Part shown: positions 4,527 to 60,850 of the stretch, piece after piece
How positions within the stretch are numbered: the stretch's first letter is position 1
Layout of the letters: each line of letters begins with the position of its first letter
From: a candidate division Zixibacteria bacterium HGW-Zixibacteria-1
GTDB lineage: Bacteria; Zixibacteria; MSB-5A5; GN15; PGXB01
NCBI GenBank assembly: GCA_002838945.1
Contig: PGXB01000003.1
Span: 1 to 64,000, forward strand
Length of the DNA stretch: 64,000 nucleotides
Reading direction: 5' to 3'
The notes under the pieces: generated by a model
What the model was told of the DNA's origin: nothing
The model's input: the letters and a program-made list of their open reading frames with translations, nothing else
Database searches by the model: none
Program-made: the position numbers and the translations under genes

Positions 4527-5567
4527 ATGAAAATTAAGTTGTTTCTGTCTCTTTTGTTTTTTATCTGTCCAATTGCCATTGGCCAGATCAATCAGACAAT
4601 TGTTTTTGATACTACAAGGTATCCGGCTTCAGGTTCTGATAAAGAACATTGGGATTTTGTGGGTACATTTGCGTTTAATTCTCTTCCCCAACCCTTGAAA
4701 AAGACTCTTGTCAATTTCGAATTGGAGGCAATTCGCGATGATGCAACGGATTGGCAAATAAGACTGTTAAATCATAACAATGTCGCAAGGATGCTCAGCG
4801 ATACTTTATTCAATTGGCCGGGTCCACATAAACGCGGCGACAAATATTCTGGTTATATAGAGTTTATCCCTCTAATGTCTGATAAGTGGACAATGGTCCT
4901 GACAAACAATTGTACAGGAAAAGTGCCCATCCCAGAAATGATGATTTATCATGGTATTTCCTTTCAATGGTGTCTAAACGAGGATGGCGAATTACTATAT
5001 CTGGATCAAATTGATTCGTGCCCATGGTGCTCCATTGCTAAAGCTGTCTTTATAACCCCTGACACATTACATATAATGCAATTTACTTATTTACGAGGTT
5101 CAGAATTATGTGATTATGACATATTTGTTACACCAATTCCGCATATTGATGACACTTCGACCATCATTTATGTCCTTCATGCAAATTCACTTGTCACTCC
5201 GTATTATGATATTGCGATTGGAACAAGTAGCGCTGATATTTCATACGAGCCATGTAATATAAATTATGTAATGTACCCTGGGGATAGTCTCATTATTCCA
5301 ATAAAATTCATCCCCAGACTAGCGCAGCAAATTTGCAGCATCAATCTCGATTTTAATGACCGCTCATCTAATAGCGACCGAAAATATGAACACCAAAGCA
5401 TTATCTGCGGTTTTATTTTTGACAATGATGGCAACCTGCGTTATTGCGGCGGTAGTAATTTTGGCCACGTTCCGGAAGATAAATATCCCAAGCTTCCCTA
5501 TCCGGAATGGTATCTTCAATATGATCGCAAGGATACCTCCGTTTATCTGAACAGGTGTGAGCATTGA
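4527..5567 (+). CDS. Secreted protein of unknown family, tandem paralogue A
   Basis: I do not recognise this 346-residue protein. It has a clear signal peptide (short basic start, hydrophobic run LFLSLLFFICPIAIG) with likely cleavage before QINQTIVFD, giving an N-terminal glutamine. The mature part looks all-beta and rich in Trp, Asp and Cys, with blocks NWPGPHKRGD, HGISFQWC, AVFITPDTLH, PIPHIDDTSTII and a C-terminal CGFIFDNDG..LRYCGG. About two thirds of positions match the next gene, including most cysteines. The ATG is chosen for GGAGG six bases upstream and the signal peptide; the frame stays open further 5' without support. Base composition is visibly more AT-rich than in the neighbours, which suggests separate acquisition. 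Confidence 0.8.
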   Translation: MKIKLFLSLLFFICPIAIGQINQTIVFDTTRYPASGSDKEHWDFVGTFAFNSLPQPLKKTLVNFELEAIRDDATDWQIRLLNHNNVARMLSDTLFNWPGPHKRGDKYSGYIEFIPLMSDKWTMVLTNNCTGKVPIPEMMIYHGISFQWCLNEDGELLYLDQIDSCPWCSIAKAVFITPDTLHIMQFTYLRGSELCDYDIFVTPIPHIDDTSTIIYVLHANSLVTPYYDIAIGTSSADISYEPCNINYVMYPGDSLIIPIKFIPRLAQQICSINLDFNDRSSNSDRKYEHQSIICGFIFDNDGNLRYCGGSNFGHVPEDKYPKLPYPEWYLQYDRKDTSVYLNRCEH

Positions 5568-5696: not shown

Positions 5697-6743
5697 ATGC
5701 GAACTAATATTGCTTTATTTGTCTTTCTTTTTATTTGTTCAATGACCTTTGGGCAGATCAATCAGACAATTGTCTTTGATACAACAATCTATCACTTTTC
5801 ACCGCCTCCGCGATGGGCTTATGTCGGCACTTTTGAGTTCCAGTCTCTTCCTCAGCCATTAAAAACTACGAGAGTGAATTTTGAACTTGAGGCGGTTCGT
5901 GAAGATATTAATCAGGTTGAGGTCAGTAATTGGCAAATAAGGCTTTTAAATCATGATAATGTCGCAAGGGTGATAGGTGATACTTTGTTCAACTGGCCCG
6001 GTCCGCATAAACGCGGTGACAGATATTCCGGTTCTTTTGAATTCATTCCTCTGATGGCCGGCAGGTGGACAATGGTCCTGGCTAACAACTGTATCGGAAA
6101 AGTCCCTGTCCCGGATATGATGCTCAACCGGGGAATTTCCTTTCAATGGTGTATAGATGAAAATGGCGAGTTGCAATATTTAAACCAACTTGATATGGGC
6201 CCATCTTGTTCAGTATCTAGGGCTGTCTTCATAACGCCAGACACATTGCATTTCCCGCAATTTTCTGATAGACGGGGCTTGGAATTATGTGATTATGATA
6301 TGATTATTACCCCCATTCCTCATATCGATGACACCTCCACCATTATCTTTAATCTTCATGCGAATTCACATATTACTCCTCAATATGATATTGCGATAGG
6401 AACAAACAGTACAGATATATCTTTTGAATCAAAGAATATTAATTTTAATATACCGGCGGGGGATAATCTCGTCATCCCGGTAAAGTTTGTGCCGAGACTT
6501 GCGCGAGAGAGATGTAGTATAAACCTTGTTTTCAATGACCGCTCTTTGAACAGCGAGAGAAAATATCAACGCCAGAGCATTGCATGCGGATTTATATTTG
6601 ACGACGATGGCAAGCTTCGCTATTGTGGTGGGAATAATTTCGGCCACGTTTCAAAAGAGAAATATCCCAGACTTCCCTATCAGGACTGGCATCCCAAATT
6701 CGATCCCAAAGACACAACCGTTATTCTGCATAGATATGAGTGA
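5697..6743 (+). CDS. Secreted protein of unknown family, tandem paralogue B
   Basis: This 348-residue protein is a close paralogue of the preceding gene. After a signal peptide (ALFVFLFICSMTFG) it has the same mature start QINQTIVFDTT and the same conserved blocks LPQPLK, WQIRLLNH, LFNWPGPHKRGD, GISFQWC and FITPDTLH, plus the cysteine pair CGFIFDDDGKLRYCGG. Differences are spread along the length with a few short insertions near residues 30-75, so both copies seem to be under constraint. The intergenic 129 bases are AT-rich and have no terminator that I can see. No strong Shine-Dalgarno precedes the ATG. The domain does not match any family I know, and no catalytic motif stands out. Confidence 0.8.
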   Translation: MRTNIALFVFLFICSMTFGQINQTIVFDTTIYHFSPPPRWAYVGTFEFQSLPQPLKTTRVNFELEAVREDINQVEVSNWQIRLLNHDNVARVIGDTLFNWPGPHKRGDRYSGSFEFIPLMAGRWTMVLANNCIGKVPVPDMMLNRGISFQWCIDENGELQYLNQLDMGPSCSVSRAVFITPDTLHFPQFSDRRGLELCDYDMIITPIPHIDDTSTIIFNLHANSHITPQYDIAIGTNSTDISFESKNINFNIPAGDNLVIPVKFVPRLARERCSINLVFNDRSLNSERKYQRQSIACGFIFDDDGKLRYCGGNNFGHVSKEKYPRLPYQDWHPKFDPKDTTVILHRYE

Positions 6744-16683: not shown

Positions 16684-18009
16684 TTAGATTTTTCTTCTGA
16701 CTTTCATTTTCAGGTTATTTACTTCGACAGCGATGACTTCTTCGCCTTCTTCGATTATTTCGTCAGCGAAAGCTTCCCACAATTCCCCGGCCAGATAGAC
16801 ATAGCCGGTTTTATCGATTTTTGTTTTAACGACTCCGGTGACCCCGATCAGGCCTTCGGCGCCGGTTGTCGGCCTGGCGACCCTTGCTTTATAGGCCAGT
16901 GTGAAGGCGAGAATGACAAAGGCGCCGACGACAATCGCCACGGTATAGATGATAGAGCGAGACACCTTCAGCTCCGGATCGGCGGTATCGACAAGCATCA
17001 GCCCGCCGATTATAATCGAGATTACTCCACCTATTGTCAATAAGCCATGACTCACGATTTTAATCTCCAGTATAAAAAGGATTATTGAAAATAATATTAA
17101 CAGAACCCCGGCATAATTGATGGGAAGGGTCCTCATTCCATAGAGCGCCAGAATAATACAGATTCCTCCGACGACACCGGGAAGAATCGCGCCGGGATTA
17201 TACAGCTCCAAAACAAGGCCCATGCTGCCCAGGGAAAACAAGATGAATACAATGTTGGGTGATGAGACAATGTCGAGCAATGACTGGATAAAACTTTTCT
17301 TGATCGGTATTTTTTCCGGGTTTGCGGTATGCACGACTTTTTTGCCGAGTATGGTGTTCACTTCGAAGCCATCGATTTTTTCAAGCAAATCATCGACATC
17401 GTCGGCAATCAGGTCGATGACATGTAGTTCGAGGGCTTCTTTGCTGGTGATAGAAACCGATTTACGGGCGGCATCCTCGGCCCATTCCGCATTGCGCCCA
17501 TGCCGTTCAGCCATCGCCTTCAGTGAGGCCACGGCATCGTTCATAACCTTTTCCATCATGACCGAATCCATTTCGCCCCCCATAGAGACAACATGAGCCG
17601 CGCCGATATTGGTTCCGGGGGCCATGGCCGCGATATGGGCAGCATATGTTATATATACCCCCGCCGAAGCGGCTTTGGCGCCGGAGGGCGATATATAAAC
17701 GGCGACCGGCACGGATGAATTCATCATCGCCTTTGTTATCGACCACATCGATTCATTGAAACCGCCCGGGGTATCCATGGTAATCAAAAGCAGGTCGGCC
17801 ATTTCATCTTCGACCATTTCGACAGCCTCGATAACACGGTCGGCGGTTACGGTTCCGATGGCGCCATCGATATTAAGGATATATACCAGCGATGATTCAG
17901 CCTGAGCCTTCATTTCATCGGTCGAATCAGGCGGCGGCATTTCATCCTGTGACGCAACCGGTAAAGCATATAAAAGGACAAGTAATATTATAAGACATTT
18001 TATTTTCAT
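16684..18009 (-). CDS. NfeD-family membrane-bound ClpP-class serine protease
   Basis: The 441-residue protein has a signal peptide ([15 protein letters not shown]) likely cut before QDEM. A ClpP-class protease domain (about 40-230) follows, with Ser115 in GAKAASAGV and candidate general base Lys154. Four to six transmembrane segments (about 235-370) and a C-terminal OB-fold NfeD domain come last. This is the long NfeD1b-like form that cleaves hydrophobic segments of its stomatin partner in Pyrococcus. ATG is chosen over the adjacent GTG because GGAGG is four bases away from it. Predicted mature N terminus is glutamine. Confidence 0.92.
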
Positions 18010-18254
18010 CACGCCTCCATCCGGAATTTATTTTAATAAGACCTTAATGCCCGGAAAATATTTACTAAGTCTGCCATAGATTTACGCGAACGGTTCGATT
18101 CCAGGCAACTCTTTCATCTTCTTCATATCAATTGTCTATACATAATGGTTAATTTTATAATGAAATCTGTCAGCACCCCATCGGTAACTGTATAGGCAAG
18201 TTAGCGCAGGCAGTATGAGAATGTCAAATAAAAGTTTTAATTGCCAGAGCGCCT
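18010..18254. other. Intergenic, nothing firm
   Basis: About 245 bases between the amidohydrolase and nfeD genes. A TTGACA on the minus strand (18227-18222) could belong to an nfeD promoter but the matching -10 is poor. A tRNA-like TTCGATTCC does not fold (see rejected items). Confidence 0.4.
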
Positions 18255-19850
18255 TTAGAAGGAAAGTCTCTTATCTTTTCTCAGGAAAACAGGTTTACCG
18301 TCAAAAAAAGTGGCCAGTATATTGACATTTTTAATCCGGGTTCGCGAAACCTTAAAAATATTATCCGTTAATACCACGAAATCCGCGAAGAATCCAGGGA
18401 GCAAACGACCCAACTCATTCTCGCGACTGACGGTATAAGCCGGGGCGGCGGTAAAACCATCGACGGCCTGCGCAACCGAGATTCTTTCCTCGGGATAAAA
18501 AACTTCTTTCCTGCCGGGCGCCTTTCTATTGACGGCGGCATCGATGCCGGCAATCGGATCAAGCACTTCAATCGGCGCATCCGATCCAAAAGTAAGAGGG
18601 ATACCCTGTTTGAGGAGGGTATTAAATATGAAGCAATTTTGTCCTCTTTTGCCCCAGTATTTCTCAATCAAACTGATATCCGAAGGGCAATGTGATGGCT
18701 GCATGGAAGCTACGGCTCCGAGCGATTTAAGGCGCTTGACGTCGGATCGGCGAATCATCTGCAAATGTTCGATGCGCCGTCTGATCCCGGGCAGTAGCGA
18801 TGGGGCCTGCTCATAGCAGTCAAGGACGTTGGACACGGCTTTATCGCCTATGGCATGAATGGCGGTCGGCAGGTTGAGCCCTGCGGCACCAATGATATGC
18901 TTTAGCAGGACTTCTTTTGGGTTGGTCTCGACGCCAAAATTTTCCTTCGAGCCCATATATTTTTGAAAACATAGAGCCGTCTGACTGCCCAGAGAACCGT
19001 CGCTAAATATTTTAATCCCTGAAATACGGAAATAGTCATTGCCATATCCGTACTTTATTCCGGCTTTTCGCAACTCCGGAATCATGGCGGCGGGAGGGTA
19101 ATAGCTGATTCTGAGGCCAAGCTTCTTTTCGCGCGAAAGCTTGTCAAAAAAACCAAGCGCATCGGGCCCATCGAAAGAATGAACACCGGTTACACCTTTG
19201 GCATAAGCCATCTTAAGGGCCTCATTGAATAGAGCGGGGCGTTTGGATGGAGCCGGGCCCTTATAAAGCTTGAACACGGGGAAATAAGCGGGAATCTCGC
19301 GCAGGATACCTGACGGTTCATGGCCGTCAAGACGATCGATGCGGCCGCCTTCCGGCTCGGGTGTTCGGGCATTGTAACCGGCCAGTTCCAGGGCGCGGGA
19401 ATTGACCCACATAACATGCTGGTCCTTGGAAAAGAAGGCCGCGGGACGGCCGCCGGTGACGTTGTCGAGCATGAATTTATCCGGCAGGACATATTTTTTC
19501 CAGCGGTCGGGAGAAAATCCTTCGCCGAAAACCCACTCATCCCGTCCCAGCTTTATGGCATGTTTCCTGATGGCTTCAAGCGTCTCTTCAATCGTCTTCA
19601 TGCCATCGAGTTTCACATTTCCCAGGGACATGGCCAGGAAATAGAAATGTGTATGCGAATCGGTAAACCCCGGAATAACGGTATGGCCCTTCAGGTCGTA
19701 CTTCTCAAATCCGGCAAAATCGGGATCGCTTTGAAGCTTTTTGCCGACGGCGACTATTTTATTTCCGGAGACAGCCATGGAATCGGCGGTTATATTTTCA
19801 CCGGCCTGAATATAGATAAGGCCGTTGAAGAATAGTTTATTCTTTTTCAA
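18255..19850 (-). CDS. YtcJ-like metal-dependent amidohydrolase
   Basis: The protein of about 531 residues belongs to the amidohydrolase_3/YtcJ family of zinc hydrolases. Visible features are the small beta-sandwich start, GHTVIPGFTDSHTHF with the HxH metal motif, later histidines in IHAIGDKAV and RIEHLQMI, and GSDAPIE near the end, where an Asp ligand is expected. Substrates in this family are mostly unknown. No signal peptide is seen. The start is taken as TTG because AAGGAG sits exactly six bases before it; upstream GTG/ATG codons in frame lack a signal. It overlaps the selB end by 14 bases. Confidence 0.88.
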   Translation of the reverse strand: MKKNKLFFNGLIYIQAGENITADSMAVSGNKIVAVGKKLQSDPDFAGFEKYDLKGHTVIPGFTDSHTHFYFLAMSLGNVKLDGMKTIEETLEAIRKHAIKLGRDEWVFGEGFSPDRWKKYVLPDKFMLDNVTGGRPAAFFSKDQHVMWVNSRALELAGYNARTPEPEGGRIDRLDGHEPSGILREIPAYFPVFKLYKGPAPSKRPALFNEALKMAYAKGVTGVHSFDGPDALGFFDKLSREKKLGLRISYYPPAAMIPELRKAGIKYGYGNDYFRISGIKIFSDGSLGSQTALCFQKYMGSKENFGVETNPKEVLLKHIIGAAGLNLPTAIHAIGDKAVSNVLDCYEQAPSLLPGIRRRIEHLQMIRRSDVKRLKSLGAVASMQPSHCPSDISLIEKYWGKRGQNCFIFNTLLKQGIPLTFGSDAPIEVLDPIAGIDAAVNRKAPGRKEVFYPEERISVAQAVDGFTAAPAYTVSRENELGRLLPGFFADFVVLTDNIFKVSRTRIKNVNILATFFDGKPVFLRKDKRLSF

Positions 19851-21729
19851 AATTTTCTCCTTTGATACGAACATCACCCTGCCGCTCGGTTATGCCCAGG
19901 CGATCGGTTTCCTCCAATATAGGCACGACAAACTTCCGGGAATTGCTGAGTTTTTCCCGCAGCACCCCGACCGAAACACTTTCACCGCTGTCAAGCATAC
20001 TTCGAATGATTTTAATAATTTCGTTCCAGCGATCGACATGAAAGACAAGCAACTGTCCAATTTTTACTACCTTCTCGGTATTAATGAGAAATTCCAGAGC
20101 TTCGCGACGCACAGCTTCCTTGCCAATCAATTCCTTCACCGTCGGTGGGGCATAGCCTCCCTTATACAACTCCATTTCTATCTTCTGAGCAGCCTGTTGA
20201 ACATCTCCCCTGACGTCTATGGATCGACCCGGCAAATCATATTTATTTTTCTTCTTAATCAGTTGTTTTTTCCCGCACATCAGATCCAGAATGGGTCCCA
20301 GATTTTGCGCCTTTTTCCCCGTTTTGGCGGAAATCAACTCGACCCCGATGCCGTCATAATGAGGATGGCTCTCGAAAATACTCTTGACGGCCGACAGCAC
20401 GAGATCAATACCGGGGGTTATTTCGGATATCAGGTAGTGCTTTCCGTCATGTTCGTCGATTCTTCTTTGACTGATCAATTTAGCCACGGCCTGATCGATT
20501 TCCAATTGCGAAAAATCGGCACTGATGAAATCGATGTTTTTATTAATAAAAATCGATTTTTTCAATTCGCTGTAAACGAGATTGTAAGGAGTCAGGTCCT
20601 CTCTGTCCTCAAGATACTGAAACTCCGGTATTTCGCGCCGTCGCGGGAACTTGTCCAGATGGTCAAGAATCATGCCGCCACCGACAGTGCTCTGGGGGGT
20701 CGGCAGGCGAAAGATAAAACGATCGCCGACAAAAGCCAGGACCGGTTCTTCCGGCCGGAAAAAAAGAAGGCCCTGCTGACCGGGGTGAATAATCGGATTA
20801 TGGGCCATCCTGATTTCTCCTTCGACCTCCGTCGTCCCGATAATCATCAGCAGCCTGCGGCCGGAATCGAGGCTGACAGGGGATTCGGGAATAACGGCGG
20901 TCGACAGCGCAAAAACATTACCATCCGGATAACTGCGGATTATATGGGGGGTTGAGATGACTCCCCCTCGATGCAGAAATTCCTTATCAAGGCCGGTCAG
21001 GCTGATCGAAGTCCGCTGGCCCGGTTCGGCCCGATCCATCTGTCGGCCGTGGGATTGAATAGTGCGCACTTTTCCGATTTTGCGCGCCGGGAAAATGCCG
21101 ACTTCATCGCCGACACCAAGTTTTCCTCCTCGAAGCGTCCCGGCCACTACTCCGCCCATGCCGGAAAGAACGAAAGAGCGATCGATGTATAACCTTGGTT
21201 TGCCGATATCCTCTCGTTCGATAATGCGATCGGCTAATTTAAGGATCTCATCCTTGAGATTATCGAAGCCTTCACCGGTAATCGCCGACAGCCGGACAAT
21301 CGGCGCATCCTGCAGAAAGGAACCGGCGACTTTTTCCCTGATATTCTCTTCCACCAAATCGAGCCAACTTGATTCGGCAAGATCGATCTTGTTAATGGCG
21401 ATAAGGCCGTACTTGATTCCAAGCAGTTTTGTGATTTGCAGATGTTCCTGGCTCTGCGGCATCCAGCCGTCATCGGCGGCCACAACCAGGATAACGGCAT
21501 CGATACCGCCGGCTCCGGCAATCATGTTCCGGACAAAGCGCTCATGACCGGGGACATCAATAATGCCGATACGGCGGCCGTCGGGGGTGTCATAATGAGC
21601 GAACCCGATGTCGATGGTCATGCCGCGTTCTTTTTCCTCGGGCAGGCGATCGGGATCGATCCCGGTGAGGCGGTTAATTATTGCGGATTTCCCGTGATCG
21701 ATATGTCCGGCGGTTCCGATTACAAACAT
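19837..21729 (-). CDS. selB: Selenocysteine-specific elongation factor
   Basis: SelB brings Sec-tRNA(Sec) to the ribosome at UGA codons marked by a SECIS hairpin. The 630-residue protein begins with an EF-Tu-like GTPase domain (GHIDHGKS at 8-15, DVPGHE and NKID), then two beta-barrel domains to about residue 340 and several winged-helix domains to the end that bind the SECIS RNA. Length is typical. The ATG lies one base after the selA stop, so the pair is translationally coupled. Confidence 0.95.
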   Translation of the reverse strand: MFVIGTAGHIDHGKSAIINRLTGIDPDRLPEEKERGMTIDIGFAHYDTPDGRRIGIIDVPGHERFVRNMIAGAGGIDAVILVVAADDGWMPQSQEHLQITKLLGIKYGLIAINKIDLAESSWLDLVEENIREKVAGSFLQDAPIVRLSAITGEGFDNLKDEILKLADRIIEREDIGKPRLYIDRSFVLSGMGGVVAGTLRGGKLGVGDEVGIFPARKIGKVRTIQSHGRQMDRAEPGQRTSISLTGLDKEFLHRGGVISTPHIIRSYPDGNVFALSTAVIPESPVSLDSGRRLLMIIGTTEVEGEIRMAHNPIIHPGQQGLLFFRPEEPVLAFVGDRFIFRLPTPQSTVGGGMILDHLDKFPRRREIPEFQYLEDREDLTPYNLVYSELKKSIFINKNIDFISADFSQLEIDQAVAKLISQRRIDEHDGKHYLISEITPGIDLVLSAVKSIFESHPHYDGIGVELISAKTGKKAQNLGPILDLMCGKKQLIKKKNKYDLPGRSIDVRGDVQQAAQKIEMELYKGGYAPPTVKELIGKEAVRREALEFLINTEKVVKIGQLLVFHVDRWNEIIKIIRSMLDSGESVSVGVLREKLSNSRKFVVPILEETDRLGITERQGDVRIKGENFEKE

Positions 21730-21730
21730 A

Positions 21731-23113
21731 TCAAATTCTGTCTGACAGACTTATTATGATTTTCACAAGTATTTCGGCATCTTCATCATCGACCGCTTTC
21801 AAATCAATCATGAAGCGGTTCTCGGAAATTCTTCCGATTACGGGCGGTTCGGTGCCGCGGAACATGGCCGCCAGTTTGCCTGGAGAAACCCGGCTGTTGA
21901 AAACCAGCGCCACTGATGGAAGCGGGACACCGGGCAGAGCACCGCCTCCCATTTCCCCCTGTGAGCCCTCGAGCGAAATCTTATCTCCAGCTCCGATTTT
22001 ATCCAGGAGGGTACGTCCCTTTTGATACAGCTCCGATTCACTTCTTGTCGCAAGCCGCCACAATTTTATGTTTTCTTTCCAGGTATTGTCCAGATAATAA
22101 CCAAGCATCTCTTCGACCGCCGAAAAGACGGTTTTATCCACGCGCATGGCGCGATAGACGGGATTTTTCCTGATCCGGTCAATCAACTCCTTTTTCCCGA
22201 CAATCAGGCCGGCCTGGAATCCGCCGAGCAGTTTGTCGCCGGAGAAACATGTCAGATCGGCATCATCACGCACGGAATTCTGAACGGTCGGTTCCTTGAT
22301 TCCGGCGATCTCAGTGGTATCGACCAGGACGCCGCTGCCAAGGTCATTGACGACCGGGACATTATGTTTTTTGCCGAGCGCAACGAGCGCCTTGATGTCG
22401 ATCTCTTCGGTGAAACCGGTAACGGCGAAATTACTTTTATGGACCTTCAGGATTAGAGCCGGGTTTGCTTCGAGCGCGTTTTTGTAATCATCAATGGTAG
22501 TGATATTGGACGTGCCGATTTCGATGATTCCGGCGCCTGATTTTCTGATGATGTCGGGTATGCGAAAACCGCCGCCGATCTGGACCAGCTCTCCGCGGGA
22601 TATGACAACTTTCCGGCGGTTGGCCAGGGTATTCAGAATAAGAAACAGGGCGGCCGCATTATTATTGACAATGGTGCCCGCCTCGGCCCCCGATATCAGC
22701 GACAGATATTTTTCGGCAAGGATGCCTCTCTTCCCGCGCTTTCCCGTGGCGACATCGAATTCGAGATTGCCGTAACCGGTGACATGATTCTTGATCTTAT
22801 CGAACAGGGTATCCGAAAGCGGTGCCCGGCCCAGATTCGTATGCACCATGATGCCGGCGCCGTTGATAACACGGCCGATTTTTTTCAATTTCATCAGCCT
22901 GATATTGTCAATGATAATATCCCGAAACCGGTCATAGCTTATCGGTTCGAAGCTTTCATCCAGATTCTGCTTGAAATTATCAATCGTCGTCCGAATGATT
23001 TCGACAATAAGCGGCCGGGCCAGTCCGGAAGCGGCTTCCAGGATGACTTTATCCGAAGCCATGATTTCGACGGCCGGAATATCGCGCTTCGATTTGATAA
23101 TATTTTCAGTCAT
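21731..23113 (-). CDS. selA: L-seryl-tRNA(Sec) selenium transferase
   Basis: SelA is the PLP enzyme that converts Ser-tRNA(Sec) to Sec-tRNA(Sec) using selenophosphate. The protein of about 460 residues is full length. It carries VHTNLGRAPL, NDLGSG, and the PLP lysine Lys294 in SGDKLLGGFQAG, one residue from its position in E. coli; the usual GGPQAG is GGFQAG here. The ATG one base after the cyclase stop gives the expected N terminus; a longer frame would overlap that gene by more than 100 bases. selC and selD are not in the window. Confidence 0.94.
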   Translation of the reverse strand: MTENIIKSKRDIPAVEIMASDKVILEAASGLARPLIVEIIRTTIDNFKQNLDESFEPISYDRFRDIIIDNIRLMKLKKIGRVINGAGIMVHTNLGRAPLSDTLFDKIKNHVTGYGNLEFDVATGKRGKRGILAEKYLSLISGAEAGTIVNNNAAALFLILNTLANRRKVVISRGELVQIGGGFRIPDIIRKSGAGIIEIGTSNITTIDDYKNALEANPALILKVHKSNFAVTGFTEEIDIKALVALGKKHNVPVVNDLGSGVLVDTTEIAGIKEPTVQNSVRDDADLTCFSGDKLLGGFQAGLIVGKKELIDRIRKNPVYRAMRVDKTVFSAVEEMLGYYLDNTWKENIKLWRLATRSESELYQKGRTLLDKIGAGDKISLEGSQGEMGGGALPGVPLPSVALVFNSRVSPGKLAAMFRGTEPPVIGRISENRFMIDLKAVDDEDAEILVKIIISLSDRI

Positions 23114-23114
23114 A

Positions 23115-24047
23115 TTATAATCTGTACAAAAGGTTGGCGACAACATTACCGACCGACTGAAGGGACTGCGGCGAACACTTGTCCGGAGTATCCTCGGTCG
23201 TATGCCAGTATTTATAGTCAAAATCAATAATGACTGCCGCCTGCAGTCTTATGGTCATAAAACTGAGATGATCGTCATGGATGGCATATCCGACGGAATC
23301 GACGAAGGCGGCCTCACCAAGATTGGCGGCGATTTTCCAAACCATATCAGTCACTTGAGATGAATATTTATTCGAAAACTCTTCCCTGTAAATTTTCAGA
23401 TCACGGTCGCCGATCATGTCGATGACCAGAGCAAAATGGTACTTGTCTTTGATATTTCTTTTAACCATTTCTTTGGCACCGAGGAAATATTCGTCCAGGC
23501 GTCCGGGCGGACCGTAATCCTCACCGTCCAGCAGCACGAGGTCGATACCGACACGCGGCCTCTGTACAGCAAACAGATTGGCCAGTTCCATCAGGACCGC
23601 CACTCCGGAAGCACCGTCATTGGCTCCATCTATCCAATTCTCGCGTTTGGTCGAATCGGGATCGTACTCCGCGCGCGGTCTGCTGTCGTAGTGCGCGGCC
23701 AATAAATATTTTTTTTGATCACCAGGGTCGGATCCTGCGAATGACGCTAAAACATTAATCATCTCAATCGGTTTTCCGGTTCTCTTGTCATTGTGCACGA
23801 ATTGCATGGTATTAATATCCGCACCCAGACTGTCAAAGAACTGCATCAGATATTCACGACATTTCCGGCTATTTTCACTGCCGGGTACACGCGGCCCGAA
23901 TGAAACCTGTTTCTCGATATATTGAAAGGCTCTCTCGCCGTTGAAACGAGGCGCCGACACCGTCGGTTTATCTCCGCATGCAATCAGAAGAAAAAAACAT
24001 ACGTCAAGGATAATATACGGTATAAAATAAAACTTCATTTTCTTCAT
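23115..24047 (-). CDS. Glutaminyl-peptide cyclotransferase (M28 fold) lipoprotein
   Basis: The protein of about 310 residues starts with a lipoprotein signal peptide (lipobox LIAC, Cys24) and should face the periplasm. Its M28-type domain matches animal-type glutaminyl cyclases motif for motif: HYDSR, Asp144 in DGANDGASG, Glu176-Asp177 in LLDGEDY, Asp210 in IDMIGD, Asp259 in HDDHLSF and His282 in YWHTTEDT. These align by eye with the catalytic and zinc residues of human QC. Such enzymes turn N-terminal glutamine into pyroglutamate. An aminopeptidase role is the alternative, but the DDH and WHTxED motifs favour cyclase. It sits between sprA and selA in one run. ATG is preferred to a TTG 12 codons upstream. 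Confidence 0.85.
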   Translation of the reverse strand: MKKMKFYFIPYIILDVCFFLLIACGDKPTVSAPRFNGERAFQYIEKQVSFGPRVPGSENSRKCREYLMQFFDSLGADINTMQFVHNDKRTGKPIEMINVLASFAGSDPGDQKKYLLAAHYDSRPRAEYDPDSTKRENWIDGANDGASGVAVLMELANLFAVQRPRVGIDLVLLDGEDYGPPGRLDEYFLGAKEMVKRNIKDKYHFALVIDMIGDRDLKIYREEFSNKYSSQVTDMVWKIAANLGEAAFVDSVGYAIHDDHLSFMTIRLQAAVIIDFDYKYWHTTEDTPDKCSPQSLQSVGNVVANLLYRL

Positions 24048-24092: not shown

Positions 24093-27000
24093 TTAGAATC
24101 GAATATCGACATAGATACGAAGTTCCCGGACATGCGACTTGCGGCTTTGCTGAACATTGTTGGTGTCCTGCCAGCGGGCGCTGACGCCGCCCTTGATTTG
24201 ATTGGAGAAAGTATATGATATGGTCGGTGTCACCATGAAATCCTTGTTTTCTCCGGCGGAGATCAGGGGGTTGTCGCCGGTCGATTCTTCTCTTTTTTGA
24301 GTACGGGTGGAAACTTCGAGAGAAATCGACATGGTCGACCGGAATTTCAAGCGTCCCAACAGCGGGAACCGGACGCCGGTCGGCCAGGAGAATGAATATT
24401 TTGTCGAGGCTGAGGAACCGGAATTTATACTGCGCTGTTTGCGAGTGACATTTCCCGTGCTGGAATTATAGGATGTGTTATCGCTGACGGAACGATTGGT
24501 GCGCACGTCAATGGTAAGTCCGCGAGTCACATCAAAGGTGAATGAAAGCAGCGGATTCTGGGAGACAGTAACCTCTTCCACCGTTTTGTAGCCGGTCGTC
24601 AGGTTGTAGGACTCCTTGGTACTTCTGGTATATTTGGTCCGGGGAGAGAATTTCCGGATAATGGGGTTCAGGAATTTGAAAGTGGTCATCTGGCTGATCG
24701 AAAAATTAAAATCGGGAAACGTGGTCGATATACTCTTCTGCGGATTGACCGCCTTTTTGATATCCCGATTAATAGTGCGGCTGAATGACACGCCGGTTTT
24801 CAGCCCTCCAAAAAGCTTTGTCCCCGAGCCGAGTGAATAGCTGGTTACTTTGGTCGAAACGGTCGATTGTCCGGCCGCCCCCGCTTCAGGATCTATCTTC
24901 GCCCCGATAGCATCCGTCAACCCGAATCTGAATTTCAGTTGGGCCCGTTCCAACAGCCCGATATATGAATAACGGTATGCTTCCTTGAAGTCATAGGTAA
25001 AGGGATCGATCCAGCCGGTCAGGAACCGCATCATCCACGCGGGCTTGTCCAAAACCTTCTTGATCACACTTCCCTTGGATTCCGGTTGGGCCACGGTTAC
25101 ACCTTGTTGGGTACGCTTGCGCGGGGTCGACCGGCGGGACGATGACTGTCCACCGAAAAGCTTTTGCAGATCGAAGGTACCGCCGACCCCGTAGGACTTG
25201 CTGGCCGACATGTTCCGGTTATCCTTAACTATAATAAAATCCTCGATATAAGACGCCGAATAATTGAATTTGTGTGTCAGGAAGCCGAAGAGGGTCGGAG
25301 AATAGTTGGCACTGAAGGCCTGGCTGTATTTCGTTTCACGCCCCAGCTTAAATTCTTTGGGATTGAAGCTGATTTTGACCAGATCGGGGTTCGATATATC
25401 CCGACGTGTGTCCATGCTGTAGCTGGCCGTGAGATTATCTGTAATTTTATAAGTCGTTTTAAAAGTGCCCGCAAAAGTTTTGGTAAGGCTATTTGTCAGA
25501 ATGCCATTGACATTCCGACTGATACGCAGATTGCGGTTGATATCGGAGGTCACGTTGAAGTTGGACGGGAAAACGTAAAACTTGGTCCCGCTGAGACGTT
25601 TTAGTACTGGCATCGGCTGCGTCCAGAAAAAGACCCTGAGACCGGGGACTTTGCCAATATTATATCCGTATGAAGAACCGACCCGGTAATTTTCACTCAT
25701 CGACATCGGCGCCGATGGTGAGATGCCATCGGAACGGTTATATGAGAAATTTGTCCGCAGGTTGTTCAGCAGGACGGTAAACAGAGGGTTCTTGGTTTTC
25801 TTGTTAAAATTTTCCGATGTCGAAAATGATTTGGATATATTTTCGGTCCTTTCTTCATACCGCAATTCTTCAGGAAGGATAATGTCGGAATTGTACTTAA
25901 GCCTGGGCGTCGAGATGTTTCGTGTATACCGGTAAGAAAAAGGAATATTGGCGCCCAGCGAGCGGGGCAGGAACTTGTCCAGTTTAAAATTGATGCCGTA
26001 GTTATAGGCATTGGTCGCTTTTCCGCTGCCCAGATTATCGGCTGAACCTCCCCTGGTCGAGCTTGATATTTTCCTGAAATAGGCGTTTTCATAATTGTAG
26101 CCGGCATTATACGTAAACAGATCGGCGACATTTCCGCTGAAAGTAATGCGGGCGGCTGTGCCGACATCATTCCTGACATCGGTCAGTCTCAATTCATCGA
26201 TCCAGAGGTCACCGCTTGTCAGGTTGTCGACTCTAAGCGGCACCACGCCAAAAGCCAGATATTTTATTTTTGTGATATTGGGCTTTCCGAAGACACGATA
26301 ATTGCTTCCATTGATGGTCGAATCAATATAATTCGTGTCAGGTTTATTGGCGCGCGCCCGTTCAAGAAATTCCTTCAGGCCGGTTATTTCATCGAAATTC
26401 ATACCGACATCGATCCAGCCTTTACTATCCAGCCACTGATTCGAATTGATTGCCGTTCTCAATTCATAGTAGTTCTGATTGTTTTGACCGACGCGGAATA
26501 GAAACATCAGGCTCGAGCCGTCGGCCAGTTCCTCGGGAGCCCTGACAAACATTTTCAGTGTCCCGTATCCCATCAGATTCGGCGTGTCAAAAAGAATCCT
26601 CTCGACCAGGCCGGTGTCGGCCGTTGCCGAATCATAGGCCCGGAAATTATCATAGGTCAGAAGCAGCGACTGCTCCGGTTCGATGATATCGGCGGTGATG
26701 TCATGGTATCCGGACACACCGGGAGGGGATGTGTAATAGGGATGATCGGGATCATTGTCCTGGGTACCTATAACGGCAACGCTGAAACGCTGCTGGGTGG
26801 AAGTATCAGCCGTAACGGCATAGCTTGGAATAATTGTGGTATCTTCCCAGTTGGGCGAAATAATTTCCGCGGAAGCGATCTGCAGGCTGTCTATTTTGCT
26901 GCCATCGGGCGATTCTATCCAGAAGCGGACAAATTCAATATTCGCCCAGACCGGGCTGCCGACGATAGCATCGAGAAGTAAAGAATCACGCAGCGGGATG

Positions 27001-30000
27001 CGGTAGGTGCCCCAGCCATATTCGTTGCGCGAAAACTGGACAAAAAACTTATCGAACTCGTCGGCCAGGTCTATGCTATATGAAAAATAGTTATTTCTTG
27101 TTTGTGCCGTCTGGTCGCGGTTGAAATCTTCAATATCGGGAAGTCCCAGGGTCCCGGGGTCAAGCCTGTTTTTTTCGGTTCCATTGATATATCGAATTTT
27201 ATAAGGATCGGTGTCCTTATAGTCCCAGTTATCGCCATGCGGGTCGGGATTGGTCTGGGCATCGTAACCGGGTTCGTCCAGGTCGGCCAAACCATCCAGC
27301 CCGATGTCTTCGCTGTCGTCAAGAACGCCGTTATTGATAACATCTTCGTCGTCAGTCTTGCCATTGCCGTTGATATCTTCGGAAATTTCACCGATATCAA
27401 CATGCAAAATACCCTTTCGTCCTTTTAAACGAAGTTCCAGCATGTCGGCGCGGCTCATATCGGTGGCACTGCCGACCAGACCACGCATAATGCCGGCCCA
27501 GGACATAGTCGGATCAACACCGGTCAGTGTGTCCGGAACATTACCGACACGACGGTCAAGTGTTCCCGGCTCAAAATACAACTGCAACACCTGGGTCGTA
27601 CTATTGCTGGCCGTAACATCCTTATTCCAGATCGTCCTGGTCGAAACCTGGTCATAAGGATTGTACCAGTTCATCCAGGCGCGATAATGCAAATCGTCCA
27701 AGGTGTAGGGCTTCGACGAATAGGACCAGGACTCTCTGTAAACGCTGAGAGAGTAAGAATCACGACTGCCCTCGAAATCATCGAGGTAGGCGACACCATC
27801 GACATTGGGATTCGGGTATGATTGGGCCAATTCGGCGGTAACGCCCAGATTGGATTCCTGCTCGGTGCTGAAAAACGGCAGAGCATTGGCGGCGGTGGTC
27901 AGGAAACTCGGCTGTACCTTAAAACTGACGTCGCCGTCCCAGACAAACATTTTTGAAGTTTCCTGTCCGATCTTCGGTTTGCGCTGGGTGGCCTTGTCCG
28001 ATTTGTACAAAATCGTACTGCCGAATTTAAGATTTGGGCTGTATTCATATTCACCACGAACGCCGAATAGAGTTTTTTTCTGAGCCTGGATAAAGGGTGA
28101 ATATTCGAAATCAATGGATAAATCATCATTCAAGTTGACATTATCCCCCAGCGTAACCCGGCCGAAGTCATAATTGATTGTATAATCCTCGCCTCTCTGG
28201 AGCACCACGCCGCCGGAGACAATTCGTTCCGAACCTTCGATAATATTTGGTTTGCCGAGGGTGATTTCGTTGGATTTGCTGACCGATGTAACCTCAATAT
28301 AATATTTACTGGCTTCTAAAGCATCTTTTGAAGCGCGTTTGGTGGTGTAAATTTCCGGAACGGTTTCCACGAGCGTGGTATCATTATCGGGCCGGGTAAT
28401 ATTAAACGGCTCGCGGCTGGGGAAAATAAGGAGACCCTGGGCCGCTATTATAATATCCGAATATACATCAACTATATTATCCGGCTTCCGATTGCCATTC
28501 TGGTCATACCGGTCCAAACCCAGAATGGTTACATACGGAACACCCGGTTCATTTTTATCAAGGTTATCTTCGCTTCCTTCGGTACCATTGGTCCCCTTGA
28601 ATATTTTGATTTCAAGTCCATCAAGATCCACGCCTCCGGAAAATGAGCCGATAGCGTAGACATTTCGCCAGGCGTATTGAAAGGTCTGCTGAGACTCAAT
28701 GGGGCTTCTGGCCTTAATCAGCTTCAAATGATAAGGCGGAGCTTCGATGGAGCCGACCGTATCCAGTGTTCCATTGATGCCTCCTCGTTGGACCACCATC
28801 CAGACGCCGATTTCGGCATCATAGGTCCCGGCATTGGGCTTGTCGAACATTATCCAAAAATCATTATTGTCGACATAGTATTCTTCCGGCGGGACTTCTT
28901 CAACCAGAATATTGTTGACGCTTTCGGTCCCTGCAAATTCGGTGGAATCAAAGGGATTGACATACATATTGGCGTCAGTACCCAGGGCATTATTGAGATT
29001 CGATGTGACCCTCCGATAGACCGCAATCTGCTGAATACTATCCCCGGCCGCAGGATCGAAATCAATTTTATCGAATTTGGTGGGATCGAGCCGTCCGAGA
29101 TCAAATATCTTGCCGTCAAGGTAAGCATAATCGCGAATATGCTGCTTGCGGGATGAGGCGCCGGCCGTGATGGTCGTTCGCTCGGTGGTACCTTTTTCCT
29201 GGCTGGCGATCGCAGTCATTTCCAGGCCCCCGACTTTCGCCGTTGTTTTTAAACCGAACAATCCTTTGATCCTGGTTGAATAACCAACAAACTGGGTGTT
29301 GGGAAGCGACAGGGTGGTATTGCCGGCCTCGATGGTCTGGATGATATCGTCTTCATCACCCTTGTAACGGATCATGATGCGGTTGGCCAGCGGAATATCT
29401 GTTTTGGAGTCCTGGGACACGGCAACGGTGATTTTGGAGCCAATGGTGCCGTTAATATCAAATCGAGAGACCTGCTCCATGTTGAGAGTCGGAAACTTAT
29501 TCTGGCGATAAGTTGCGGTGGAAGTGCGGTCATCCCATTGTGATCTTCCGGAAAGTGTAATTTGATGATAACCCGAAACTTTCAATCCGGCGCCGCCCTC
29601 GCCGAAGAGTGATTCCATCGCCTTGGACTTGATCGGGATATTGATAGCCAGCAGTCCTCCGGCTTTGTCTTTCTGATCCTTGGCCAGCGCCTTGGCCCTG
29701 GTTTCGCGCATATCATTTTTCAGATTCAGCCTGGTGCGGTATTCCATAAAGGCGTCGGCATCAACCGCCCGAGGCGTATAGTAATAGGAGTATTTGCCCT
29801 TTTTGTAGAAGGAACCGGTGAAAGTGATTGACTTCTGTTCATAACTGGAATGATCGACCTGGACATTGCCGACATACATTCTTTTCAGTTCAGGATATTC
29901 TTTCGGGGTTATCGAGGCCGAGAAGACGGATGTTTCTTTCGGATACGGCGAAATATAGGCGGGCGGGTATTGCAACTCCTGATAGAAACCGGGAGCGGCG

Positions 30001-30038
30001 GATACAATTCCACACGTGGTCAGAATGACCACCATCAA
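24093..30038 (-). CDS. sprA: SprA-family outer-membrane translocon protein
   Basis: The 1,981-residue protein resembles SprA (Sov), the giant beta-barrel pore of the Bacteroidetes type IX secretion system. Evidence is the length, a signal peptide (LLMVVILTTCGIVSA), and long runs of alternating polar/aromatic strands. Diagnostic blocks include FSGNVADLFTYNAGYNYE, and an acidic calcium-loop-like stretch around residues 880-960 with DINGNGKTDDED and DIGLDGLAD, typical of SprA. It is somewhat shorter than Flavobacterium SprA (about 2,400). The start is uncertain: TTG or the next ATG lacks a good Shine-Dalgarno, and codons upstream in frame (RRFSHLWL) look like a missing signal n-region without a usual start codon. 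murB precedes it and the glutaminyl cyclase follows. Confidence 0.85.
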   Translation of the reverse strand: MMVVILTTCGIVSAAPGFYQELQYPPAYISPYPKETSVFSASITPKEYPELKRMYVGNVQVDHSSYEQKSITFTGSFYKKGKYSYYYTPRAVDADAFMEYRTRLNLKNDMRETRAKALAKDQKDKAGGLLAINIPIKSKAMESLFGEGGAGLKVSGYHQITLSGRSQWDDRTSTATYRQNKFPTLNMEQVSRFDINGTIGSKITVAVSQDSKTDIPLANRIMIRYKGDEDDIIQTIEAGNTTLSLPNTQFVGYSTRIKGLFGLKTTAKVGGLEMTAIASQEKGTTERTTITAGASSRKQHIRDYAYLDGKIFDLGRLDPTKFDKIDFDPAAGDSIQQIAVYRRVTSNLNNALGTDANMYVNPFDSTEFAGTESVNNILVEEVPPEEYYVDNNDFWIMFDKPNAGTYDAEIGVWMVVQRGGINGTLDTVGSIEAPPYHLKLIKARSPIESQQTFQYAWRNVYAIGSFSGGVDLDGLEIKIFKGTNGTEGSEDNLDKNEPGVPYVTILGLDRYDQNGNRKPDNIVDVYSDIIIAAQGLLIFPSREPFNITRPDNDTTLVETVPEIYTTKRASKDALEASKYYIEVTSVSKSNEITLGKPNIIEGSERIVSGGVVLQRGEDYTINYDFGRVTLGDNVNLNDDLSIDFEYSPFIQAQKKTLFGVRGEYEYSPNLKFGSTILYKSDKATQRKPKIGQETSKMFVWDGDVSFKVQPSFLTTAANALPFFSTEQESNLGVTAELAQSYPNPNVDGVAYLDDFEGSRDSYSLSVYRESWSYSSKPYTLDDLHYRAWMNWYNPYDQVSTRTIWNKDVTASNSTTQVLQLYFEPGTLDRRVGNVPDTLTGVDPTMSWAGIMRGLVGSATDMSRADMLELRLKGRKGILHVDIGEISEDINGNGKTDDEDVINNGVLDDSEDIGLDGLADLDEPGYDAQTNPDPHGDNWDYKDTDPYKIRYINGTEKNRLDPGTLGLPDIEDFNRDQTAQTRNNYFSYSIDLADEFDKFFVQFSRNEYGWGTYRIPLRDSLLLDAIVGSPVWANIEFVRFWIESPDGSKIDSLQIASAEIISPNWEDTTIIPSYAVTADTSTQQRFSVAVIGTQDNDPDHPYYTSPPGVSGYHDITADIIEPEQSLLLTYDNFRAYDSATADTGLVERILFDTPNLMGYGTLKMFVRAPEELADGSSLMFLFRVGQNNQNYYELRTAINSNQWLDSKGWIDVGMNFDEITGLKEFLERARANKPDTNYIDSTINGSNYRVFGKPNITKIKYLAFGVVPLRVDNLTSGDLWIDELRLTDVRNDVGTAARITFSGNVADLFTYNAGYNYENAYFRKISSSTRGGSADNLGSGKATNAYNYGINFKLDKFLPRSLGANIPFSYRYTRNISTPRLKYNSDIILPEELRYEERTENISKSFSTSENFNKKTKNPLFTVLLNNLRTNFSYNRSDGISPSAPMSMSENYRVGSSYGYNIGKVPGLRVFFWTQPMPVLKRLSGTKFYVFPSNFNVTSDINRNLRISRNVNGILTNSLTKTFAGTFKTTYKITDNLTASYSMDTRRDISNPDLVKISFNPKEFKLGRETKYSQAFSANYSPTLFGFLTHKFNYSASYIEDFIIVKDNRNMSASKSYGVGGTFDLQKLFGGQSSSRRSTPRKRTQQGVTVAQPESKGSVIKKVLDKPAWMMRFLTGWIDPFTYDFKEAYRYSYIGLLERAQLKFRFGLTDAIGAKIDPEAGAAGQSTVSTKVTSYSLGSGTKLFGGLKTGVSFSRTINRDIKKAVNPQKSISTTFPDFNFSISQMTTFKFLNPIIRKFSPRTKYTRSTKESYNLTTGYKTVEEVTVSQNPLLSFTFDVTRGLTIDVRTNRSVSDNTSYNSSTGNVTRKQRSINSGSSASTKYSFSWPTGVRFPLLGRLKFRSTMSISLEVSTRTQKREESTGDNPLISAGENKDFMVTPTISYTFSNQIKGGVSARWQDTNNVQQSRKSHVRELRIYVDIRF

Positions 30039-30115: not shown

Positions 30116-31072
30116 CTATACGCGTTCCTCCTCGAAATTGCCCAGCAGGATAACCTCCTCCTGTAGTTCGATGCCGAATTTCTGCCTGACCATACTTTTC
30201 ATCAAGTCAGCCAGCTTTTTAATATCATCGGAATGGGCCGAGCCATTATTAATCAAAATGTTGGCGTGGTTTTCAAAAACTCTGGCGCCTCCGCAGCGCA
30301 TTTCTTTAACTCCCACTTCTTCTAAAAGCTTACCGGCCGAAAGTTTCCCGAATTTCTGAGATTTATCAGGAATATTTTTAAAAAAGCAGCCGGCCGAGTG
30401 CAAACCGATGGGGAGTTTCTCGCGCCGCATGGTCATAATTTCATCGACTCTGCCCTTTATTTCCTCCGTATTGCATTCTTTTAGTGCAAACTTTGCCCTG
30501 GTTACAAACTCGGCGGTTTTTTTAAGTTTTGACCAGCGGTAAGCAAACTCAAAATACTCGGCCTTTTCTTCTCTTATATGCCCTTCTCTATCAACAACTT
30601 CGGCAGATATCAGGGTATTCCCGATCTCGCCGCCATAAGCACCGGCGTTGCCATAAATGGCGCCGCCAACTGTTCCCCATATACCAGAAGCAAATTCCAA
30701 GCCGGACAAGCCGTTCTGAGTAGCGTAATCGACCAGTCTCTGAAGCTCTTCACCGGCTCCGCAGATTATTTGGTTGTCAGACTTTTCCAGTCCATGGATC
30801 GAATTCTTAATTATCAAGCCGTCAAAGCCCGAATCCGAAACCAGGACATTGGAACCGCCGCCAAGCATAAAAATCGGCATTTTCAATCCGGATGCGACGG
30901 TCATCAGCCGGGATAATTCTTCTCCGGAAGAAACCTCGATAAATAACCTGGCATTTCCCCCGGTCCCGAAGGTATTCAGATCGGCAAGAGGTCTGTCGAC
31001 CACAATTCGATTGCCGAAGTGCTCCTTCAGTAAGGCATAAGTTTCTTCAAAATCCCAGCTATTATTCTTCAC
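30116..31072 (-). CDS. murB: UDP-N-acetylenolpyruvoylglucosamine reductase
   Basis: MurB reduces UDP-GlcNAc-enolpyruvate to UDP-MurNAc with NADPH and FAD in cytoplasmic peptidoglycan synthesis. The 318-residue protein shows the FAD-binding MLGGGSNVLVSD, YGNAGAYGG, and the catalytic serine motif SAGCFFKN, with a C-terminal domain and length of the type II (Gram-positive-like) form. The start is GTG, seven bases after AAGG. It lies between DUF1844 and sprA genes and may share their transcript. Confidence 0.95.
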   Translation of the reverse strand: MKNNSWDFEETYALLKEHFGNRIVVDRPLADLNTFGTGGNARLFIEVSSGEELSRLMTVASGLKMPIFMLGGGSNVLVSDSGFDGLIIKNSIHGLEKSDNQIICGAGEELQRLVDYATQNGLSGLEFASGIWGTVGGAIYGNAGAYGGEIGNTLISAEVVDREGHIREEKAEYFEFAYRWSKLKKTAEFVTRAKFALKECNTEEIKGRVDEIMTMRREKLPIGLHSAGCFFKNIPDKSQKFGKLSAGKLLEEVGVKEMRCGGARVFENHANILINNGSAHSDDIKKLADLMKSMVRQKFGIELQEEVILLGNFEEERV

Positions 31073-52965: not shown

Positions 52966-53159
52966 AGGTCAAGAATGATATTTTTTAATAGGGTTTGGCA
53001 ACAGAAAAATCACCTCCCGCCCAATTCTGCCAAATCGGAGCGACAAATCACCGGTAGTCGAAAATGGAGGTTTTATCACCTCGGGCCGGACATAGAATGA
53101 CAGAATTTCATTCCTAATCTACCCTACTTATAGGGATTTTGACCATTTTGGAGGCAACA

Positions 53160-59425: not shown

Positions 59426-59629
59426 ATGATTCAGGCATCCGATACCGTGGAGGATCTTCTTAAAATATATCCCGAAATAGATGCCTATTTGATTCGCCGG
59501 GGTATTCGCTGTGTCGTCTGCGGCGAGCCGGTCTGGAGTACGATCGGCGAGTTGATCGAGAACAAGGGGCTTGATGTTGACGAAATGATATCGGAACTGA
59601 ATGATAAATTCGCCGGCGATCAAAAATAA
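59426..59629 (+). CDS. DUF1858-domain small protein
   Basis: The 67-residue protein is a DUF1858-type helical domain (TVEDLLKIYPEIDAYLIRRG), with a CVVCG cysteine pair near residue 29 and a TIGELIE helix. Such domains are annotated as hybrid-cluster-associated redox disulphide domains. It starts two bases after hldC and its 3' end overlaps the convergent secreted gene by ten bases. Confidence 0.8.
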   Translation: MIQASDTVEDLLKIYPEIDAYLIRRGIRCVVCGEPVWSTIGELIENKGLDVDEMISELNDKFAGDQK

Positions 59630-60783
59630 TGCAATCTTTCAACCTCAGCTCTTTTTTGATTTCCCAAAAAGGCCCAGATAAATCTTAGAGAAATCGCCTC
59701 TCCCGCCAGCGCATCGCCCGCGCCGTTTTCAAAATTGGTATGAATGATTCTCAATTGCACCGAAAGATATCTGGTTTCAAAAGGATCATAAAAATACTTT
59801 AACCCGATACCGCCGTTGATATTTATGGCTCTCAGCCAGGTGCTGGAGTTTTTGTTGGAAAGTTTGCGGGCCTGAAGAGTCTCATAGCCGATGCCGCCCA
59901 GAAGATCAAATTGATACCGGTTTTTTTTAACAAGCCCATATCCCGGCTCGAGGCCGATATAAAAATCATAAAATGAATTCGACCCTGCAACCGCGCCGCC
60001 GAAATCGACCAGATAGGATTCTTTTGAATTGACGAATCCGAATAATATGGCCAGATCGCAAAATGCCCGCACTTTCTTTACACTCATTCCGATTCCCACC
60101 TGCGGATGGGTCCCGAAGAAATCATAATTGCCGACGCCCTGCCAGACACCGGCCAGGCCGTACAGGCTCCCGAGCGGGCTGGTCAGAATATTTTTGGCCC
60201 GTGTATGATATTCGCGGGTTATTTTTGATTCGGGGTATTTCCGGTTTCTGAGGGCATCAAAAAAATACGCGGTATCGCCGGTATATAACCGGCAAATAAG
60301 ATATTCTATATTGGTGCTGTCGATATTCATGACACATGAATCGGCGATTCGATGCGTAAGGCTGTCAAATCTGGTATATTTATCAATGTCTTCCTGCGTG
60401 ATGGTATATTCAGAAAAATATAGCGAGGAAGAAACCGGCGGCCAGAATTGATATCTCTTGTTGGAATTATACAATAAATAATCCAGCAGGGTGCTGTCAT
60501 AATTATTTTCATCGAATTGATTCTGAACAATATCTGACAGGATTTTCATCCGATAAACCGGTTCTGCTGCGTTACAAAAACCGGTCACAAAATCGACCAT
60601 GGCATAAATCGAATCGAAGTTCCCGGAATCATAATACTTGATAAATTTATCGAAAGAATTAAATTCAATCAGGATGCAGGGAGGTTTATTGTCGCGATTT
60701 TGTGCAGAGTCATCTTTGATTTGAGCATTTACGGAAATAATAAAGGAAAAGAAAATAAAAAGTAAACCGGGCAAATATTTCAT
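59620..60783 (-). CDS. Secreted protein of unknown function, barrel-like C terminus
   Basis: I do not recognise this protein of about 387 residues. It has a signal peptide (YLPGLLFIFFSFIISVNA) likely cut before QIKDD, an N-terminal half (about 25-215) rich in Asp, Tyr and Ser with helical character, and a C-terminal half with Gly/aromatic strand-turn patterns (GSLYGLAGVWQGVGNYDF onward). This may be a small outer-membrane beta-barrel, and the last residues are polar. The ATG is preferred to in-frame GTGs just upstream. Confidence 0.75.
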   Translation of the reverse strand: MKYLPGLLFIFFSFIISVNAQIKDDSAQNRDNKPPCILIEFNSFDKFIKYYDSGNFDSIYAMVDFVTGFCNAAEPVYRMKILSDIVQNQFDENNYDSTLLDYLLYNSNKRYQFWPPVSSSLYFSEYTITQEDIDKYTRFDSLTHRIADSCVMNIDSTNIEYLICRLYTGDTAYFFDALRNRKYPESKITREYHTRAKNILTSPLGSLYGLAGVWQGVGNYDFFGTHPQVGIGMSVKKVRAFCDLAILFGFVNSKESYLVDFGGAVAGSNSFYDFYIGLEPGYGLVKKNRYQFDLLGGIGYETLQARKLSNKNSSTWLRAININGGIGLKYFYDPFETRYLSVQLRIIHTNFENGAGDALAGEAISLRFIWAFLGNQKRAEVERLHYF

Positions 60784-60850
60784 CGCTGCCACCACTGTTT
60801 TATAAAATGTAAAATTCTTTCTAAGAATAATCGATACGACGACCTCCTAT

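Follow-up and report, generated by a model that had tools for sequence, protein, structure and literature searches.

A glutaminyl cyclase-type gene next to sprA and a partial Q-rule in Zixibacteria

Introduction

Does a predicted glutaminyl cyclase (QC) gene lying beside the gene of the outer-membrane translocon SprA mark a Q-rule outside Bacteroidetes, and is such a rule tied to the translocon? The locus is found in a 64,000-nucleotide stretch of DNA (hereafter the window) from contig 3 of the 82 contigs in a 3.83 Mb metagenome-assembled genome (MAG) of Candidatus Zixiibacteriota. The first-pass annotation of the window had proposed that the same Q-rule as in Bacteroidetes may operate in this lineage, coupled to the export pore gene. 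According to published work (PMC10653852), the Q-rule is found only in Bacteroidetes. The Q-values reported for them range from above 48% to 77%, with a mean of 71% (Bochtler et al. 2018, PMC5837995). Two QC lineages, animal-type and plant-type, occur in Bacteroidota (PMC5837995).

Results and discussion

Identity of the QC protein

The QC gene (23115..24047, minus strand; ATG at 24047, stop at 23115) encodes a protein of 310 amino acids with the lipobox FFLLIAC^GDK, in which LIAC occupies residues 21–24 by inspection and Cys24 is the predicted lipidated residue. Pfam gave M28 only (E = 2.4e-31), and the closest NCBIfam match was an aminopeptidase, far under its cut-off. These matches, together with the independence of the Gln bias from the gene (see below), would fit a non-cyclase M28 aminopeptidase to which the excess of N-terminal Gln is unrelated. 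However, the protein was much nearer to proven QCs in both sequence and structure. Among PDB sequences, the nearest solved chain was Tannerella forsythia QC (6qro, E = 1.5e-52), and the best matches were all bacteroidal or bacterial QCs (6qro, 3tc8, 3gux, 4fuu, 7d1b, 6qql). Bacteroidal QCs matched at E values of 1e-38 to 1e-52, while the first aminopeptidase, 2ek8, appeared at 7e-12. The AlphaFold model (pLDDT 92) aligned with the bacteroidal type II QCs PgQC (6qql), TfQC (6qro), and BtQC (4fuu/7d1d) with Z scores of 42–44 and rmsd of 1.5–1.7. M28 aminopeptidases (2ek8, 1cp7, 6hc6) have the same fold but reached a Z score of only 32 in the same VIA comparison. The best 13 rows of a Foldseek search with the model were either QCs or bacteroidal entries for which a QC role has been proposed.

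The residues that separate the two families pointed the same way. QCs are marked by the zinc ligands D149, D183, and H299, by a Gly or Ser following the first of these Asp residues, and by a Trp preceding the His (Taudte et al., PMC7948796), whereas aminopeptidases have a two-metal site, Asn or Asp after the bridging Asp, and Tyr in place of the Trp (PMC7948796). In the Zixibacteria protein, D144, D177, and H282 align with the single-zinc ligands PgD149, PgD183, and PgH299 and are putative zinc ligands, and both QC-type signatures, D144-G145 and W281-H282, were found. The predicted acid/base pair consists of E176 (HsE201) and D210 (HsD248); bacteroidal QCs normally carry an Asp at the E202 position (PMC5837995). 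Across 26 homologues, H119, D144, E176, D210, W281, and H282 were invariant, and every ligand, acid/base, and signature residue other than D177 was at least nearly so. No residue could be aligned to PgF294 because the segment there is shorter (IDFDYKYWH), with F276 and Y278 nearby. The segment IIDFDYKYWHT before the W-H motif was common to all 26 homologues except L035, which has DFNYPYWH.

The Zixibacteria protein therefore resembles the bacteroidal type II QCs in fold, lipoprotein anchor, zinc ligands, acid/base residues, and D-G and W-H signatures. It differs from them in being ~30–36% identical, in the shorter segment before W-H, and in the location of its gene beside sprA. Type II QCs were already known outside Bacteroidota, from Fimbriiglobus ruber (7d1b) and Acidobacteriales (7d18); the Planctomycetota QC loci examined had no sprA neighbour, unlike the Zixibacteria QC. 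Judged from its sequence, the gene at 23115–24047 encodes a glutaminyl-cyclase-type lipoprotein carrying all alignable catalytic and QC-diagnostic residues, which bears out the earlier description of a lipoprotein with animal-type QC motifs. The D-G signature, the Trp before the ligand His, the bacteroidal E-D pair, and the lipoprotein nature make the aminopeptidase reading very improbable. The protein would be expected to have cyclase activity and to reside in the periplasm.

The sprA–QC pair is conserved across phyla

The first-pass annotation had placed the QC beside a SprA gene, and this held in the window and well beyond it. The sprA/sov-like outer-membrane translocon gene (24093..30038, minus strand; TIGR04189, E = 1.2e-185) lies directly upstream of the QC gene and ends 45 bp before it. 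The minus-strand gene order in the window was murB, sprA, QC, selA, selB. The murB-like gene (30116..31072), assigned by similarity in related loci, is conserved upstream of sprA in Zixibacteria. Downstream of QC are selA (21731..23113) and then selB (19837..21729), both on the minus strand; the listed selA open reading frame (ORF) starts at 23227 and overlaps QC, while its homologous part begins at about codon 39. In nearly all Zixibacteria loci examined, selA and selB directly followed the pair.

By coordinates, QC immediately followed sprA in 64 of the 68 Zixibacteria genomes checked, and at 41 of 55 QC loci sprA ended 35–230 bp ahead of the aligned QC start on the same strand. The pair was also found in Calditrichota, KSB1, and two unclassified MAGs. 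The full order murB-sprA-QC-selA-selB was conserved within Zixibacteria, and other phyla retained just sprA-QC, which makes mere local gene order a less likely source of the adjacency. Since the outer neighbours differ among phyla (murB/selA in Zixibacteria; LptF/LptG and prmA, exbB, or ppx elsewhere), the sprA-QC pair itself is conserved. The QC tree mostly tracked organism groups, and adjacency to sprA was clustered on it (5 changes versus 8.8 when shuffled). Together, these results point to an old pair that several phyla of the FCB neighbourhood have conserved, and they favour a selected pair, with an inherited old order as the less likely reading. In a fixed-word search of open-licence papers, we found none naming both SprA and glutaminyl cyclase.

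Same-strand adjacency with a short gap in these groups, amid varying outer neighbours, would also be expected of a dedicated module in which the QC caps proteins that meet or pass SprA, with pyroglutamate and the pore working together. Several loci argue against it. In G027, murB-sprA-selA-selB was intact and QC was cleanly absent between sprA and selA, and the QC loci examined in Bacteroidota and Kryptoniota had no sprA beside them.

In a Cloacimonadota MAG (L058, 7798–10828), recG lies directly before QC, and in Zixibacteria recG is a few genes upstream of sprA-QC; the Cloacimonadota arrangement may have been left behind when sprA was lost from an ancestral order recG-(murB-sprA)-QC. The Zixibacterium genome G040 had no QC, and its best match to SprA (E 3e-6) was not full-length.

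Gln-starting exported proteins in the window

Four exported proteins in the window had been predicted to expose Gln at +1. Their N-termini were as described, and only three of them are independent cases, since the first two are tandem paralogues. These two (4527..5567, plus strand, PIAIG^QINQ; and 5697..6743, plus strand, MTFG^QINQ) have the N-termini MKIKLFLSLLFFICPIAIG^QINQ and MRTNIALFVFLFICSMTFG^QINQ, respectively, and both begin GQINQTIVFDTT after the predicted cut. The third is an NfeD/ClpP-class membrane protease (16684..18012, minus strand, PVAS^QDEM; 20 residues before the cut), and the fourth (59620..60795, minus strand, SVNA^QIKD) has the N-terminus MKYLPGLLFIFFSFIISVNA^QIKD. Our signal-peptide model independently called three of the four; the 4527 gene was uncalled because its long upstream ORF extension exceeds the limit of the model. 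With two non-Gln signal peptidase I (SPI) substrates called by the model (33890 and 34854), the window had Gln in four of six, a share that exceeds the genome-wide 21% in part by chance. The window also holds a large exported protein (53139–55130) that contains DYDNDGDLDLF-type repeats and, at its C-terminus, a dockerin-like repeat (GDIDGGGTINILDITFLINYIYKGG).

A partial Q-rule in Zixibacteria

To count +1 residues, we used a home-made mixture model with four classes (SPI, lipoprotein, N-terminal anchor, none) that never scored the +1 residue, and the +1 distribution was then estimated by expectation maximization (EM). The sample from the source genome covered 800 kb plus the window, ~22% of the genome. 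Gln was the commonest +1 residue, found in 23 of 108 SPI substrates (21%; EM 24%, 90% interval 17–28). This was far above the background Gln frequency of 2.9% (binomial p = 7e-14), above positions +2 to +9 of the same proteins (5.7%, p = 3.5e-8), and above Escherichia coli K-12 (Fisher p = 0.0013), where a 450 kb control gave 2 of 59 (3%; EM 4.9%, background 4.7%). Three other QC-bearing Zixibacteria gave 14 of 58. A Bacteroidales MAG control reached 63%, which fits the published mean of 71%, and Bacteroidota under the same model gave 21 of 35 (60%).

We also compared, across whole genomes, DNA patterns of signal-peptide starts with Gln at +1 and at +2. The +2 control is conservative because part of its matches are true +1 sites. 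Zixibacteria had 3552 matches at +1 versus 2410 at +2, with an excess in 104 of 118 genomes (p = 1.6e-18); the source genome itself showed a weak excess (54 versus 47). Per Mb, the excess was ~10–18 in Bacteroidota-type genomes and Kryptoniota, ~10 in KSB1, 1.2 in Planctomycetota, and −3.2 in a Cloacimonadota genome. In an Abditibacteriota MAG with QC (G128, L057), the counts were 80 versus 35, and many matches were type IV pilin-like starts.

The Gln+1 excess in Zixibacteria is therefore real and intermediate between E. coli and Bacteroidota, amounting to a partial Q-rule. The excess over background that the first-pass annotation had anticipated was thus seen. The "same Q-rule" as in Bacteroidetes was unsupported, since the Q-value of ~21–24% lies under the 48% mark. 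The two systems nonetheless share a predicted periplasmic QC lipoprotein and enrichment of Gln right after SPI sites. In Calditrichota and KSB1 (G118, G121, G122), ~43–50% of predicted SPI substrates had Gln at +1 (9 of 21 in the pooled count), close to Bacteroidota, which runs contrary to an exclusively Bacteroidetes Q-rule.

The Gln bias outlives the QC gene

We found the QC in 96 of the 118 Zixibacteria genomes, including 66 of the 78 high-quality ones; the gene was missing from scattered families. Plant-type QC (PF05096) occurred in seven genomes, three of which had no animal-type gene (G022, G059, G097; loci L082, L084, L085), a non-orthologous replacement as in Bacteroidota, where animal-type and plant-type QCs likewise substitute for each other in some genomes. 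Nineteen genomes with neither QC type, some of them drafts, were available for comparison. When the genomes without QC were searched with a profile, the only hits were weak M28 ones, most of them in ORFs of ~500–1100 codons, plus a few fragments; two of these genomes (G112, G075) had possible QC fragments at contig ends.

In four genomes with neither QC type, Gln stood at +1 in 8 of 33 SPI substrates, above E. coli (p = 0.0036) and no different from QC-bearing relatives (p = 0.82). The pattern excess per Mb agreed, at 3.37 in the 96 genomes with animal-type QC versus 3.14 in the 19 lacking both types (p = 0.73). Given this equal excess, a requirement of Gln+1 for the sprA-linked QC was not supported. 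The QC is thus dispensable for upkeep of the bias, which persists in gene-less relatives, a further difference from the Bacteroidetes Q-rule.

The equal excess with and without QC, and the scattered absence of the gene, could mean that the excess is an inherited FCB signal-peptide habit or a signal peptidase preference, maintained with no selection exerted by QC, and that the QC is now dispensable in Zixibacteria. We regard this as a serious possibility, albeit one that we lean against. The retention of the gene in most genomes, the high-quality ones included, implies that selection acts on the QC; a lag between gene and bias could reflect repeated recent losses, and other enzymes may substitute for the QC.

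No sign that Gln marks type IX cargo

SprA (TIGR04189) was above cut-off in 113 of 118 genomes, and type IX sorting tails were present throughout Zixibacteria, in keeping with a module joining QC and pore. The source genome had 44 matches to the type A sorting domain TIGR04183 (all those scored; best E 2.3e-12). GldM had no match in 60 genomes, and the same search matched no control genome either. A fixed-word search of open-licence papers found none that connected Zixibacteria to type IX secretion.

In the source-genome sample, TIGR04183 was found on 0 of 21 Gln+1 proteins versus 11 of 83 others (p = 0.11). Gln as a mark of type IX cargo was thereby rejected as a candidate, the difference being in the reverse direction and not significant. 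The Gln+1 set matched BamA/TamA-like, TPR, and surface-repeat families. The absence of sorting tails on the sampled Gln+1 proteins is in keeping with the results of Bochtler et al. (2018, PMC5837995), who saw no role for pyroglutamate in type IX sorting. Given the equal Gln+1 frequency without the QC and the lack of sorting tails on Gln proteins, the proposed coupling of the Q-rule to the export pore was unsupported, and we consider a dedicated sprA-QC module unlikely.

Proposed role and implications

The most probable explanation is that a periplasmic QC caps those exported proteins, a minority, that begin with Gln, in a partial Q-rule whose bias is independent of the gene. The gene product would be a type II glutaminyl cyclase that binds a single zinc ion and sits in the periplasm, anchored to a membrane. 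Cleavage by SPI would expose an N-terminal Gln on the exported protein, the QC would turn it into pyroglutamate, and the pyroglutamate should shield the protein end against aminopeptidase attack. This would apply to about a fifth to a quarter of the SPI substrates of Zixibacteria.

A broader view is that sprA and QC form a conserved module outside Bacteroidota that caps proteins of the SprA pathway, perhaps partners rather than cargo, and that the Bacteroidetes Q-rule is the extreme of an older partial FCB rule. The frequency of Gln+1 does rise from ~21–24% in Zixibacteria through ~43–50% in Calditrichota and KSB1 to 60% and more in Bacteroidota, and we hold this view as a speculative one, with the odds against it.

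What is new here is that sprA and QC form a conserved pair and that the Gln+1 bias persists where the QC gene has gone. An excess that outlasts the gene is a warning against inferring QC activity from Gln+1 counts alone. The graded excess, together with a sprA-tied QC in Zixibacteria, Calditrichota, and KSB1, suggests a stepwise origin of the Q-rule, and the sprA-QC lineages allow tests of that origin and of the long-suspected link to type IX secretion.
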